Assembly: GCF_029945535.1 (NCBI RefSeq)
Contig: NZ_JAQSCU010000006.1
Span: 124,001 to 188,000, forward strand
Length of the DNA: 64,000 bases
DNA from: Methylotenera sp.
Lineage (GTDB): Bacteria > Pseudomonadota > Gammaproteobacteria > Burkholderiales > Methylophilaceae
Direction: 5' to 3'
Of this stretch, positions 24,861 through 29,432 are shown one piece after another (position 1 is the first letter of the stretch; the number at the start of each line of letters is the position of its first letter). The notes under the pieces were generated by a model. That model was not told the origin of the DNA. It was given only the letters and a program-made list of their open reading frames with translations, and made no database searches. The translations under genes were made by a program, and so were the position numbers.

Positions 24861-24950
24861 GCGCTGCTCGGCGCGGGTCAATGGGATATTTAAGTTCAAA
24901 CGCGTTGAGGCTTCGCGGTTGGTTGATTAATCCTAAAATCTCTCAACGCC

Positions 24951-25029
24951 CGTCATTCTGAGTGCAATGAAGAATCCAGTTTTTAGTCACGTTCAAACTG
25001 CTGGATTCTTCATTGCACTCAGAATGACG
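24951..25029. repeat. Palindromic element with perfect 29-bp arms
   Basis: The left arm 24951-24979 starts CGTCATTCTGAGTGCAATGA. The right arm 25001-25029 is its exact complement, with a 21-base loop between. The same ends (GTCATTCTGAG and GAAGAATCCAG) recur at 29433-29567, so this is a mobile palindromic family rather than a unique terminator. Confidence 0.85.
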
Positions 25030-25087
25030 GGGGTGTGTAGCTTATGCGGTGGACTTGCTTGTAGTAAGCCGTAATTCAAATTACCTT

Positions 25088-25300
25088 TTATTTTTTGTAA
25101 CTCACTTTACTAAACACCAATAGCCCACCCGCCACCATAATTAGCATGCCAAACAAACCCATCAAATATGGGATTTTATTAAAAAAGACATCGCCGATTA
25201 AGCCTGAGAATAATAGCTACGTGTATGAAAACGGCGCTAAAGTGGCGAGTGGATAGGTTTTGGTCATTGAATACTCAGCATACCAACTTAGGCTAACAAT
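25088..25300 (-). pseudogene. 3' fragment of a DMT (EamA) transporter gene
   Basis: Read on the minus strand, this stretch encodes a C-terminus ending GGLLVFSKVSYKK plus stop, nearly identical to the C-terminus of the intact transporter at 27628-28488 (GGLLVFSKVSYRK). By hand I count 41 identities in the last 50 residues. An in-frame TAG replaces a Gln 43 codons before the end, and homology fades beyond about 25270-25300, so it is a dead fragment. It has the same orientation as the intact gene, with bufABC between the two. Confidence 0.85.
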
Positions 25301-25498
25301 TTTTTTTTAATTGTTTTGTAAGGACTGATGAGTTGTTCCGACTAAATTGAGTGTGGCGCATGATGCATCTAAATTATGCAATCTCACGTAATTAAATACG
25401 CTACGTTTCTAATTGATTTTGTTAGGCCTCAATAAAATTTAGAAGCCTATTGAAACTTTAGATGGAAGCTACTTATCATCAATTTGGAAGGAATCATC

Positions 25499-25849
25499 AT
25501 GTCTATTGAAACATCTAAAGGTCGTCGAGGTGCACTATTGGCGATTGGCGCCGCAGCACTTATCTTAGCGGGTTGTGCAGCAACAGGCTCAGGCGCCAAT
25601 ATGGCTAGCAACAGCACTGTGGGTGCATGTGTAGGCGTAAACTCATGTAAGGGCACTAGTGATTGCAAAACTGCTGGCAATTCATGTAAAGGTCAAAACT
25701 CTTGTAAAACAGCAACAAATGCTTGTAAAGGCCAAGGTTCTTGCAAAAGTGCTGCAAACGCTTGTAAAGGTCAAAATGAGTGTAAAGGTCATGGTCATTT
25801 AGCTTTAACTGGTGCTGATTGTGATGCAAAAGGCGGACATTTAGTTTAA
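25499..25849 (+). CDS. bufA: Cys-rich bufferin-type (BufA2-like) RiPP precursor
   Basis: A 116-residue precursor. Residues 1-27 form an N-terminal export signal with a hydrophobic core, which ends in a possible lipobox, ILAGC. The mature part carries ten further Cys, most in CK or CKG pairs. Three 13-residue tandem units (CKTAGNSCKGQNS, CKTATNACKGQGS, CKSAANACKGQNE) follow one degenerate unit, and the tail ends DCDAKGGHLV. Bufferins are periplasmic copper-binding peptides whose Cys are oxidised, in characterised cases to thiooxazoles, by a DUF692 MNIO enzyme with a DUF2063 partner. Both genes follow immediately. The ATG at 25499 was chosen because AAGGA lies 6 bases upstream; an upstream TTG is unlikely. 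Copper binding is inferred from the family. Confidence 0.85.
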   Translation: MSIETSKGRRGALLAIGAAALILAGCAATGSGANMASNSTVGACVGVNSCKGTSDCKTAGNSCKGQNSCKTATNACKGQGSCKSAANACKGQNECKGHGHLALTGADCDAKGGHLV

Positions 25850-25866
25850 TAGTTTGTTAATTTGAG

Positions 25867-25894
25867 CATGGGTATGGTGACATGCCCATGCTGA
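25867..25894 (+). promoter_or_regulatory. Hairpin between bufA and bufB
   Basis: AGCATGGG pairs with CCCATGCT across a 12-base loop, 17 bases after the bufA stop and before the preferred bufB start. There is no strong T-run, so partial termination or RNA stabilisation, favouring precursor over enzyme, is more likely than full termination. Confidence 0.5.
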
Positions 25895-25938
25895 TTTTAA
25901 CGACTTATCAAACCTTCACGCCATTATTTGAGATTTAC

Positions 25939-26775
25939 ATGCGCAACAATCTACCGTCATTAGGTTTTGGTCTCGGTTTACGAACAGAGCACTACAACAC
26001 TATTTTAGAAACCAAGCCAAAGGTTGACTGGTTTGAAGCATTATCTGAAAACTACATGGTACCTGGTGGTTTACCACTAAATTTCTTAGACCGTATTCGT
26101 GCAGATTACCCAGTAGTCATGCATGGAGTATCTTTATCAATTGGTTCTACAGAGCCATTCGACCAAGCGTATTTAAAAGATTTAAAAAAGCTAGCCGATA
26201 GAATTCAACCCGCTTGGATTTCTGATCACCTATGCTGGACAGGCGTGCATGGTCAAAATATACACGATTTATTGCCATTGCCTTACACCGAAGAAACTGC
26301 AAAACACATAGCCGAGCGCGTGAACACTGTGCAAGATTATCTAGGCCGTCAGATTTTGCTAGAGAACGTCTCTAGTTACGCCAGTTACGTTGATTCCACT
26401 ATGACTGAGTGGGAGTTCATCTCGCTGATTTGTGAACAAACCGATTGCTTACTGCTATTAGACGTCAACAATATTTACGTCAGTAGCTATAACCACAATT
26501 TTGATGCCAAAGACTTTATTGACGGAGTGCCTCAACATCGTGTCCAGCAAATTCATTTGGCTGGGCATCAAAATAATGGTGACTACATTATTGATACACA
26601 CGATGCACCAGTGATAGACCCAGTGTGGGATTTATATAGCTATGCAATTTCCAAGCTGGGCGAGGTTTCTACCATGATAGAGCGCGACGACAACATGCCC
26701 GAGTTAGACGTGCTAGTGCAAGAGTTGCAAATCGCACGTCATCTATCAGCCAATGTACTAAAGGAGGCCGCATGA
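25939..26775 (+). CDS. bufB: DUF692 MNIO-type bufferin maturation enzyme (MbnB-like)
   Basis: A TIM-barrel multinuclear non-heme iron oxidative enzyme expected to convert precursor Cys residues. Family blocks are visible: LGFGLGLRTEHY at the N-terminus, HGVSLSIGSTEPF, ISDHLCWTG, LLENVSSYASY, LLLDVNNIYVSSYNH, IHLAGHQ, DTHDAPV and MIERDDNMPELD, which supply the His, Asp, Asn and Glu metal ligands. The frame extends up to an ATG at 25882, but that start lies inside a hairpin. The family N-terminus begins at 25939, giving 278 residues. It overlaps bufC by 4 bases (ATGA). Confidence 0.9.
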   Translation: MRNNLPSLGFGLGLRTEHYNTILETKPKVDWFEALSENYMVPGGLPLNFLDRIRADYPVVMHGVSLSIGSTEPFDQAYLKDLKKLADRIQPAWISDHLCWTGVHGQNIHDLLPLPYTEETAKHIAERVNTVQDYLGRQILLENVSSYASYVDSTMTEWEFISLICEQTDCLLLLDVNNIYVSSYNHNFDAKDFIDGVPQHRVQQIHLAGHQNNGDYIIDTHDAPVIDPVWDLYSYAISKLGEVSTMIERDDNMPELDVLVQELQIARHLSANVLKEAA

Positions 26776-27566
26776 GTCATCTAGCCAATCTGCAAGCAGA
26801 GTTCCAAGCTTACTTAATGGATGATGTTAAAGGGGCCGGCTTCATAAAGTCTGTCATCGATGACAAAAAAGTCGGTGCAAAGAAACGTTTAGGCATTTAT
26901 TTTGACGCTTATCGACTGCGCATTATTGAAGCGCTAGCCACCGCTTACCCGCAGCTAAAAGCATTATTGGGTGATGTGCTATTTAATAAAGTGGCGCGTG
27001 AATACATAGATGCATACCCATCTACCTACCTTAATTTGCGTTGGTATGGCAGTCAGATGCGTGGACATTTGCAAGAGACGTTAGCACAACACCCAATTGC
27101 GGCTGAAATGGCCAATTTTGAATGGACGCTATCATTAGCCTTTGATGCAGAAGACGTGCCTGAGTTAAGTCTGCAAGACCTCGCGACGATTCCACCAGAA
27201 AGCTGGGTTGACCTAAGTTTTGAATTTCAACCCGCCATTAAGATTATTCAAACGAGCTGGAATACCATCGCCGTATGGCAAGCCTTAGAAGCTGAAGAAA
27301 CGCCACCAAAGCCAAAGCAGGAGAGCATTTATCAATCTTGGCTAATCTGGCGAAAAAACTTCAACTCACAATTTAGGCTGATAACAGAAATGGAAGTTAC
27401 CGCCTTAAATATGGCGGTGATGGGGGCAACTTTTGGAGAAATTTGCGCAAGTTTAGAAGTTGAGATGGATGAGGAGCAAGCTATGGTAACTGCGGCACAA
27501 TACCTAGCTAGTTGGTTAGAAAATGGGCTGGTTTGTAAGGTCAGCTTAATTAAATTCGCGTCGTAG
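26772..27566 (+). CDS. bufC: DUF2063 bufferin maturation partner (MbnC-like)
   Basis: A 264-residue protein whose N-terminal DUF2063 domain (about 1-95) has KKRLGIYFDAYRLRIIEALA and YPQLKALLGDVLFNKVAREY, typical of RiPP partners that bind the precursor leader and pair with DUF692 enzymes. Database names such as DNA-binding domain protein are misleading. Its start overlaps the bufB stop, which fits a stable BufB-BufC complex. The C-terminal part (about 180-264) looks like a winged-helix-like fold. No DoxX-type gene follows, unlike in many bufferin operons. Confidence 0.88.
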   Translation: MSHLANLQAEFQAYLMDDVKGAGFIKSVIDDKKVGAKKRLGIYFDAYRLRIIEALATAYPQLKALLGDVLFNKVAREYIDAYPSTYLNLRWYGSQMRGHLQETLAQHPIAAEMANFEWTLSLAFDAEDVPELSLQDLATIPPESWVDLSFEFQPAIKIIQTSWNTIAVWQALEAEETPPKPKQESIYQSWLIWRKNFNSQFRLITEMEVTALNMAVMGATFGEICASLEVEMDEEQAMVTAAQYLASWLENGLVCKVSLIKFAS

Positions 27567-27618: not shown

Positions 27619-27627
27619 AGTGTAACT

Positions 27628-28488
27628 TTATTTTCTGTAGCTAACTTTACTAAACACTAATAACCCACCCGCCACAATAATCAGCATGCCAACCAAACCA
27701 ATCAAGTCTGGGATTTGATTAAAAAAGACATAGCCGATTAAGCCCGCAAATAATAGTTGTGTGTATGAAAATGGCGCTAATGTCGAAGGCTTGGCGTGTT
27801 GGTAGGCTTTGGTCATCCACAGGTGGCTAACGAGGGCCGATATGCCAAGTAGTACCATTAATAAAGCAAAATGCAGAGTAGGGGTTTTCCAAAAAAATGG
27901 CAGTAACATGCTTGTTATTAGCGCACTGATGAGTCCGCTAATGAAGTTTGTGGTGCTTGAGCTATCGGTATGGTTCAGTTTGCGAGTGATGATTTGATAC
28001 ACGCTGAACGAGAGTGCCGCGCCTAAAGCCAGTAAGGCAACTGGGTGGAACATACTGCCGCCGGGGCGTACGATGAATAAAACTCCTATAAACCCAATGG
28101 CTACTGCAATCCACTGTAAACGCGCGATGCGTTCACCTAATAGCGGACCTGATAATGCGGTGACTATTAACGGGCTAAGATAAACAATGGCGGTACCTTC
28201 TGCTAGTGGAATGTAATGTAAGGCGCTGATGAACATTAAGTTTGTATTCACCATGCACAGGCCGCGAATAATTTGTAGCTTGGGATTTTGGGTAACGATT
28301 AAAGTTTTTAATGATGGCGGCCTTAATACCGCTAACATTAATGAAATATGCACAATATAGCGCACCCATAGCACCATGACGACAGGGTAAAAATTAGTGA
28401 GGTATTTAGATAGCGCATCGCTACTTGCAAAGAGAAACACTGCGGCACAAATAAATAAAATGCCTTTTTGAGGATGTTCGGTGTTCAC
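27628..28488 (-). CDS. DMT superfamily transporter (EamA domains)
   Basis: A 286-residue inner-membrane protein with about ten helices in two EamA halves. Typical features are the N-terminal KGILFICAAVFLFASSDALS, LLGERIARLQWIAVAIGFIG at the end of the first half and PFSYTQLLFAGLIGYVFF in the second. Family substrates range from amino acids to nucleotides; none can be assigned here. A decayed copy of its 3' end lies at 25088-25300 on the other side of bufABC. Confidence 0.85.
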   Translation of the reverse strand: MNTEHPQKGILFICAAVFLFASSDALSKYLTNFYPVVMVLWVRYIVHISLMLAVLRPPSLKTLIVTQNPKLQIIRGLCMVNTNLMFISALHYIPLAEGTAIVYLSPLIVTALSGPLLGERIARLQWIAVAIGFIGVLFIVRPGGSMFHPVALLALGAALSFSVYQIITRKLNHTDSSSTTNFISGLISALITSMLLPFFWKTPTLHFALLMVLLGISALVSHLWMTKAYQHAKPSTLAPFSYTQLLFAGLIGYVFFNQIPDLIGLVGMLIIVAGGLLVFSKVSYRK

Positions 28489-28589: not shown

Positions 28590-29360
28590 TTAGCCACAAA
28601 AAGGCAAAGCTAAGCTCTGCAAAATCTCGCCATTTCTTGAATCTTGCACAAATATCACTGCGCCTGCTTGTCGGCCTTTCCACTCTGGTTTTAAAGTGAT
28701 ATTTTTTGCAAACTCATTCTTATTGCTGAGTTGATAAGCACCATAGAAATCACGCACCACGTAATCATGCTTTAGTTCGCGACCATTGTTTTCGCCTGCA
28801 TTCACTTGGCTGACTAATTTATTTTCATAAATCGCTATAAAAATATCGGCATTGTTAATATCGGCAGGGTTAATGGCTTGTGCAGTTGCTTTAAGTATGA
28901 TTTCACCATTCGCTAGTGTGATGGAGTTTAGGCTTAAATTAGCGCGTGAGGCTAACTTTTGACTAGCAGAAACTGCTTGGTTTAAGCGCGAGGTGTCTGC
29001 ACCTTTAAAGTCGCGCCCGTTTAATACGAACTGGGGCGTATAGACAAAACCAGCACCTGCGAAAGCGGCAGTTTTGCGTTGTCTGTCGCTATATTCGGCT
29101 TTAGAGAATTTGTCTTTCCAGCCGATATAGTCCCAATAATCTACGTGAAAAGCGAGTGGGATAATTTTTTTAGTGTCTGGCTTTAAATCGCTTAGCCATT
29201 TATCTGCGGGTGGGCAGCTGCTGCAACCTTCTGAAGTATATAGCTCGAGTAAAGGTACTGTCGCTGCGCCGCTTTTGGCGCTACATTCTGCGGCGATTGC
29301 GGGTTGGATAGTAAGGTTAACTAAGCTTAAAGCGAATGCTATTTTAGCAATCAGGCGCAT
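28590..29360 (-). CDS. DUF1223 secreted thioredoxin-like protein
   Basis: A 256-residue protein with a signal peptide (residues 1-23, ending AIA). The DUF1223 core has the redox-like motif LYTSEGCSSCPPADKWL near residue 40 and FHVDYWDYIGWKDKFS, a thioredoxin-fold signature. A C-terminal beta region follows. The family is widespread and uncharacterised; disulfide or metal handling in the periplasm is an inference from the CxxC motif. It is monocistronic, with a palindromic repeat upstream. Confidence 0.82.
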   Translation of the reverse strand: MRLIAKIAFALSLVNLTIQPAIAAECSAKSGAATVPLLELYTSEGCSSCPPADKWLSDLKPDTKKIIPLAFHVDYWDYIGWKDKFSKAEYSDRQRKTAAFAGAGFVYTPQFVLNGRDFKGADTSRLNQAVSASQKLASRANLSLNSITLANGEIILKATAQAINPADINNADIFIAIYENKLVSQVNAGENNGRELKHDYVVRDFYGAYQLSNKNEFAKNITLKPEWKGRQAGAVIFVQDSRNGEILQSLALPFCG

Positions 29361-29432
29361 GATTGAACTCCTTTTGTGATCATAGGAGTTAGTCGTGTGG
29401 GTTGTGGAAACCTTACAAGCGTTTCAATGCGT

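Follow-up and report, generated by a model that had tools for sequence, protein, structure and literature searches.

Positions 25499-27566 of the stretch analysed here (64,000 nucleotides (nt) of Methylotenera sp., contig NZ_JAQSCU010000006.1 of assembly GCF_029945535.1, positions 124,001 to 188,000; hereafter, the window) contain a genuine bufferin operon of the Buf2 type, bufABC. It is preceded by a candidate promoter of the kind read by extracytoplasmic function (ECF) sigma factors. Comparisons were made within the whole genome (G000; 3.0 Mb, 19 contigs) and in a survey of 187 Methylophilaceae genomes. The main features are:

25317..25345, plus strand: TGTAAGG-N15-CGACTAA, predicted ECF sigma promoter, 154 nt before the bufA ATG
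25499..25849, plus strand: bufA, BufA2-type precursor of 116 amino acids (aa), matching NF050166; AAGGA lies 5' of the ATG
25664..25780, plus strand: three 39-nt (13-residue) units in bufA, CKTAGNSCKGQNS / CKTATNACKGQGS / CKSAANACKGQNE (repeat family D2, spacing 39)
25939..26775, plus strand: bufB, MNIO bufferin maturase, 278 aa from the ATG at 25939 (NF050167, PF05114, 3bww)
26772..27566, plus strand: bufC, DUF2063 partner protein of PME-type 1, 264 aa (PF09836; predicted model, Foldseek)

Three genes of a Buf2 operon

The three open reading frames (ORFs) are intact and full-length, follow each other on the plus strand, and bufB overlaps bufC by ATGA, exactly as the preliminary description of this DNA had it. 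That description took a Cys-rich exported precursor, an MNIO enzyme and a DUF2063 protein to be the core of bufferin biosynthesis, and the curated profiles, the active-site comparison and the fold of BufC agree with it. In the search that it proposed against bufferin and MNIO families, BufA and BufB scored above the model cut-offs, and BufC was assigned to DUF2063.

BufA matches the BufA2 model NF050166 (E 2.4e-31; 107.8 bits, cut-off 60), so that the precursor belongs to the BufA2 (Cys-Lys) class and not to DUF2282/BufA1. BufB matches the bufferin maturase model NF050167 (E 1.6e-117; 391.5 bits, cut-off 310) and the MNIO family PF05114 (E 1.1e-112). The HvfB model gives 279.9 bits on BufB, below its cut-off of 360, and BufA contains no EGKCG repeats, which sets the locus apart from the oxazolin/HvfA clusters. 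It is not a methanobactin cluster either: the MbnB model scores 72.4 bits against a cut-off of 325, and the partner is of the DUF2063 type. The ORF of bufB opens at 25882; the start is probably the ATG at 25939, since in the two closest relatives (G142, G158) the ORF of BufB has the matching length of 278 aa.

BufB can be aligned with the solved MNIO 3bww (E 8.2e-48), with conservation of the His, Asp and Glu motifs that we take to form the metal site. The segment ERDDN of BufB aligns with ERDFN of 3bww, Asp following ERD. The site of FonB Phe250 is reported to be Asp in MNIOs of the Cys-Lys type and Phe in those of the Lys-Cys type (PMC13097082). With this site placed in ERDDN by the order of residues, BufB appears to carry the Asp of Cys-Lys specificity.

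BufC matches DUF2063 (PF09836, E 1.8e-18; 67 bits, cut-off 27.2), and its sequence had no match in PDB at E 0.1. Its predicted model (mean predicted local distance difference test score, pLDDT, 93.2) was matched by Foldseek to NGO1945 (3dee, E 2.2e-06), to TglI (8hci, E 6.5e-05) and, more weakly, to leader-binding proteins of ribosomally synthesised and post-translationally modified peptide (RiPP) systems, such as 6jx3. The NGO1945_C profile did not match BufC; it did match HvfC from the second MNIO cluster of the genome. As judged from the modelled fold, BufC is a PME-type 1 partner, with a DUF2063 domain and a domain resembling a RiPP recognition element.

Among the 187 Methylophilaceae genomes, BufB above the cut-off occurs in 35 and a BufA2 match in 38 (23 above the cut-off); any match to the BufB model occurs in 113, mostly HvfB-like. 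As BufA2 and BufB recur in this set and the order bufA-bufB-bufC is retained in relatives, a chance arrangement is excluded. The suggestion that a methylotroph with high metalloenzyme demand would be a fitting host did not hold: 35 of 187 genomes do not make a general trait of the family, and the companions of the candidate regulon described below point to envelope redox stress. Two fused BufB-BufC proteins (PF05114 plus PF09836; 553 and 579 aa; L182:10187-11845 and L183:8167-9903 in G066 and G076) lie behind a divergent BufA2-like precursor. In L113 and L115 (G165:C7, G166:C21), bufA2 has no adjacent bufBC; its neighbours are a gene of the BufA1 type (DUF2282) and those of a sensor kinase and a response regulator, and the contig has a BufB match at a distance of about 18 kb.

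Buf2 bufferins in general have the same precursor family, MNIO, DUF2063 partner and gene order (PMC12452194). Compared with the six or twelve cysteines given there, BufA of the window has ten, through an internal insertion; moreover, its operon has a candidate stress-type promoter, and HvfX/DoxX is encoded elsewhere.

The cysteine core and lipobox of BufA

The N-terminus of BufA, read by eye, consists of basic residues, a hydrophobic stretch and a lipobox LAGC (Cys26). The core contains ten cysteines, eight of them as Cys-Lys. In an alignment with 24 relatives, BufA differs from the six-Cys forms by an insertion of 26 residues, that is, two extra 13-residue units: the six-Cys relatives carry one such unit, BufA of the window three. 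Six cysteines of BufA align with those of the six-Cys relatives and the other four are in the insertion. Because of this insertion in a six-Cys core, the Cys-Lys sites rise from four to eight and the core cysteines to ten. The predicted model of BufA is poor (pLDDT 46.6) and was not used for structure.

We counted core cysteines in 136 distinct BufA2-like proteins, picked by motif from all loci and thus a non-random sample. Six cysteines were found in 116 proteins, ten in 11, twelve in eight and seven in a single protein, encoded at the edge of a contig. Methylophilaceae account for ten of the 11 ten-Cys proteins, and all ten have a lipobox. The remaining one (G914, L243) belongs to another family of the class, has no lipobox and looks independent. 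For comparison, about 16% of Buf2 precursors are predicted lipoproteins, and six conserved cysteines occur in 90%, twelve otherwise (PMC12452194).

In the BufB tree the ten-Cys rows require four label changes, and G070 groups with Accumulibacter-type rows (98/92). The tree does not settle the number of origins of the ten-Cys form; its starred branches would be compatible with one origin.

Tandem bufA pairs were observed in four Methylophilaceae genomes, G127, G148, G163 and G168 (L122, L123, L127, L247). The first copy has the lipobox Cys, and the second has Phe or Leu instead. Such a pair probably yields an anchored and a soluble bufferin with a common maturase.

Lipoprotein signals are likewise present in other MNIO-modified precursors, DybA and NedA, and some bufferins are also listed with them (PMC12636315). 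Lipidation was shown for DybA and NedA, and modification in the cytosol followed by Lgt, LspA and Lnt was proposed (PMC12636315). Unlike DybA, a macrocycle, and NedA, an EGKCG peptide, BufA of the window is a ten-Cys Cys-Lys bufferin with predicted lipidation.

The promoter-like element and its companion genes

The upstream regions of bufA from 14 Methylophilaceae align nowhere except in TGTAAGG-N15-CGACTAA. This element is retained at equal spacing in all 14 and is perfect in 12, with one mismatch in G070 and two in G178. With up to two mismatches, the 64-kb window contains two sites, both perfect; the second precedes the gene of an exported thioredoxin-fold protein:

29389..29417, minus strand: second perfect TGTAAGG-N15-CGACTAA, 29 nt before the DUF1223 ATG
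28590..29360, minus strand: DUF1223 gene (PF06764, E 4.4e-62), exported thioredoxin-fold protein, predicted member of the same regulon

The genome as a whole contains two perfect sites, those before bufA and DUF1223, and six with one mismatch, where base composition predicts 0.026 and 1.09. Each of the eight precedes a redox or metal gene. The one-mismatch sites are:

before an EF-hand gene, 67 nt
before DsbD, 264 nt, within the neighbouring gene
before HvfX/DoxX, 40 nt
before MsrP-MsrQ
before anti-sigma and hvfABC, within the sigma gene (this site may reflect coding conservation)
before rubredoxin, about 50 nt

With no more than one mismatch allowed, four related genomes (G158, G142, G173, G148) have 28 sites, 11 of them perfect, versus five for the backward pattern. 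Twenty-four precede genes of the same set: bufA in all four genomes, MsrP (4), HvfX (4), anti-sigma/hvf (4), DsbD (3), DUF1223 (2), thioredoxin (Trx)-CcdA (2) and rubredoxin (1); the other four fall inside unrelated genes. Of the five genomes thus compared, G000 alone has the EF-hand site. A set of 43 Methylophilaceae stretches (553,782 bases, with more than one stretch from some genomes) yielded 50 sites against 0, 0, 0, 0, 0, 3 and 0 in seven control patterns, the three coming from the element's own halves set at N16. Their nearest downstream genes are DUF1223 (22), bufA (16), Trx (2), bufB (1), unnamed genes (6) and none (3); these counts are non-random, as the stretches were chosen for bufA or DUF1223. 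Outside the Methylophilaceae, 18 of 103 BufA2 upstream regions contain the element (CGWCTAA allowed, up to two mismatches), the controls giving 1, 1, 1, 1, 0, 0 and 2.

The bufA element is predicted to be an ECF-type promoter. A housekeeping promoter was considered and rejected, as the upstream scan gave no excess of sigma-70-like matches over shuffles (three, mean of shuffles 5.8).

The genome has three DoxX matches, all on contigs other than that of the operon. One is of the HvfX family (NF050144, 119.9 bits, cut-off 80), and its gene is the one 40 nt behind a bufA-type element; it probably belongs to the bufA regulon. The preliminary description was right that the operon has no doxX gene. 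However, its conclusion of a minimal version does not follow: with an HvfX-family DoxX on another contig behind a bufA-type element, a split bufferin system is more likely than a minimal one.

A second MNIO cluster is found on contig 12 and encodes an ECF sigma factor, a zinc anti-sigma factor, an HvfA-like precursor (26.4 bits, below the cut-off of 95), an HvfB-like MNIO and a DUF2063 protein. The anti-sigma factor (86 aa, following the sigma gene) contains HLFICNAC, which fits His-x3-Cys-x2-Cys, and matches NF052368 (70.9 bits, cut-off 50). The sigma factor of this hvf operon is likely the one acting at the bufA element.

This arrangement has close parallels. In Haemophilus and Neisseria, the HvfABC oxazolin/captophorin systems under RpoE2 or sigma-E likewise unite a sigma factor with its zinc anti-sigma factor, DoxX, MNIO, DUF2063 and methionine sulfoxide reductase in one regulon, with a similar promoter layout (PMC7907618, PMC2893595, PMC13097082). 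The target there is an EGKCG-type cluster, whereas in G000, which has an hvf-like cluster too, the element is also carried by a Buf2 operon located apart from the sigma gene. The neisserial sigma-E consensus consists of a -35 box GTMAGBWTT, 12-13 nt and a -10 box CGTCTAAH, and its regulon of msrAB and its own operon (PMC2893595), the latter including a DoxX gene (PMC3240639). Under hypochlorite, the genes controlled by RpoE2 in H. influenzae include msrAB, that of a DMT transporter and a cluster encoding DoxX, MNIO and DUF2063 proteins (PMC7907618).

ECF control of MNIO clusters is thus already known. CC2907 of Caulobacter is a putative Buf2 precursor; if it is one, ECF control of a Buf2 operon would not be new in itself. 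The ECF factor sigma-F of Caulobacter controls the DUF2063-encoding operons CC2907-CC2905 and CC3254-CC3257; its promoter, GTAACC-N16-CGAA, is unlike TGTAAGG-N15-CGACTAA (PMC3511200). No report of the latter element before Buf2 operons was found in the open-licence literature, outside of which most subscription papers lie.

The EF-hand site leads to the locus G000:C3:463-2847 (L276), with an exported EF-hand protein (weakly similar to the lanmodulin model, 49.4 bits, below the cut-off of 135), a cytochrome b561, an MsrP-like oxidoreductase and a small Lys/Met-rich ORF; another ECF-type sigma gene is nearby. In L112, L119, L121 and L123 (G158, G070, G118, G148), genes of an exported thioredoxin and a CcdA/DsbD-type membrane protein diverge from bufA, and those of G158 and G148 carry the promoter-like element.

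Interpretation and history of the locus

The gene identities, the cysteine expansion and the conserved element with its companions are computed results. Our overall account, held with good confidence as a whole and with less in any single inferred step, is that of a working Buf2 operon producing a lipid-anchored, copper-binding peptide from a shared ECF-type promoter. BufB and BufC would oxidise the Cys-Lys cysteines of BufA to thiooxazoles in the cytoplasm, with a loss of four hydrogens per Cys. The modified BufA would be exported via Sec and, as the lipobox suggests, lipidated, anchored in the cell envelope and able to bind excess copper. Transcription would start from TGTAAGG-N15-CGACTAA, common to the DUF1223, HvfX/DoxX, MsrPQ, DsbD and anti-sigma/hvf genes, and the promoter would probably be read by the sigma factor of the hvf operon, which is encoded together with a zinc-binding anti-sigma factor. 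The bufferin would then be made alongside periplasmic thiol and methionine repair, and its predicted co-expression with MsrPQ, DsbD and DUF1223 suggests a response to envelope redox and metal stress.

Several observations weigh against this account. The lipobox was assigned by eye. With up to two mismatches, the genome contains 27 sites versus 32 for the backward pattern, that is, no genome-wide enrichment, and for this reason weight is given only to sites with no more than one mismatch. When each half of the pattern was reversed as a second control, 14 one-mismatch sites and no perfect one appeared over the five genomes, three of the 14 being in G000. Of the 24 sites assigned to named genes in the relatives, seven are intragenic (in the sigma gene, or in or close to fxsA, 221-265 nt before DsbD), and coding sequence may account for them. 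In G142, the DUF1223 gene has no site of at most one mismatch before it. GTAAGG and the spacing fit neisserial sigma-E, but the -10 box is one base off (CGACTAA versus CGTCTAA). As ten matches to sigma-70 region 2 occur in the genome, another sigma factor could act. Finally, PMC12452194 places sigma-factor genes in Buf1 and not in Buf2 clusters.

The same companions admit a reading in which BufA is mainly a thiol antioxidant or a substrate of redox repair in the envelope, held in reduced form by DUF1223, Trx-CcdA or DsbD, with its cysteines perhaps partly modified and copper secondary. Indeed, the element is shared with methionine sulfoxide reductase, DsbD, thioredoxin-fold proteins and rubredoxin, not with copper exporters, and RpoE2 of H. 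influenzae ties an MNIO/DUF2063/DoxX cluster to hypochlorite stress (PMC7907618). However, BufB retains the motifs expected of an MNIO as well as the residue of Cys-Lys specificity, and we consider this reading unlikely.

Less likely still is an ordinary copper-detoxification operon under a metal-sensing regulator or a housekeeping promoter, the element being something else, for instance an operator, and its other sites incidental. Characterised bufferins do bind copper (PMC12452194), and one sigma-70-like match is located at 25450-25479; but such matches are fewer than the mean of shuffles, and the element has a fixed spacing, points to the gene, recurs before one gene set in several genomes and resembles a mapped ECF promoter.

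Extending the account of a Buf2 operon with an ECF-type promoter, we tentatively propose, as possible rather than probable, that Buf2 bufferins of the Methylophilaceae and of some of the wider group serve as effectors in a sigma-E-like response to envelope redox stress and not of copper regulators. The lipid-anchored peptide with its eight modifiable Cys-Lys sites would be made together with MsrPQ, DsbD, DUF1223, Trx-CcdA and HvfX/DoxX, and DUF1223 and Trx-CcdA would act on bufferin thiols. If so, DUF1223 would serve bufferins as a dedicated thiol partner, and membership in the regulon would give this family, known to have a thioredoxin fold (PMC3091736), a context. The element, present in Methylophilaceae and in part of the BufA2 upstream regions outside them, provides a testable explanation for the control of Buf2 operons and would link them to methionine and thiol repair. 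The step from six to ten cysteines, together with the predicted lipid anchor, is a natural experiment on the number of thiooxazoles per maturase and on the location of the metal.

BufB above the cut-off and DUF1223 co-occur in 27 of the 187 genomes (totals 35 and 54; Fisher p 3.8e-11, a test that ignores kinship). The neighbourhood proves little, since DUF1223 adjoins xth even in genomes without buf, and a partnership argued from neighbourhood alone was set aside on these grounds. The promoter is the better argument for the link. An occurrence of these genes beside MNIO outside the Methylophilaceae was not borne out: in the flanks of 77 loci (blastp 1e-5; mostly 3.5 kb, some contigs being shorter), Trx or CcdA was found in none, and DUF1223 in six only, each with the label Methylotenera or Methylophilaceae.

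On either side of the operon lie EamA sequences:

27628..28488, minus strand: EamA/DMT transporter gene (PF00892, E 2.7e-29), convergent neighbour
25087..25262, minus strand: partial second copy of the EamA 3' end, upstream of bufA (157 nt, 87% to 27627-27783)

The partial copy (a 62-residue EamA match, E 1e-22) has the orientation of the intact gene behind bufC, so that the operon is flanked by direct repeats; together with its left flank it matches the EamA end of G158 (84%). Recombination between the repeats would delete bufABC as a whole. Many genomes retain the slot xth-[buf]-[EamA]-DUF1223-MFS-metW-metX, for which reason a recent gain of the operon for the Methylophilaceae as a whole was rejected. 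In G142, xth is directly followed by bufABC-EamA. In G158, the sister in the BufB tree (99/90), the slot contains EamA without buf, and bufABC is found elsewhere, beside Trx-CcdA and a second DUF1223. Thus, the operon does move locally. That the cluster is decaying or non-functional, kept by chance beside a duplicated EamA fragment, is hardly credible in spite of the direct repeats, the slot of G158 and the absence of buf from most Methylophilaceae genomes, as its three ORFs are intact and the displaced copy of G158 is intact as well, with a BufB 95% identical and a bufA-type element.

Upstream of bufA there are also ORFs of 165 and 192 aa. Between the 192-aa ORF and bufA, at 24946-25034, a near-perfect inverted repeat of 34 nt with a 21-nt spacer was observed; its arm has no other occurrence in the window at up to three mismatches. 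This repeat looks like a mobile hairpin element.

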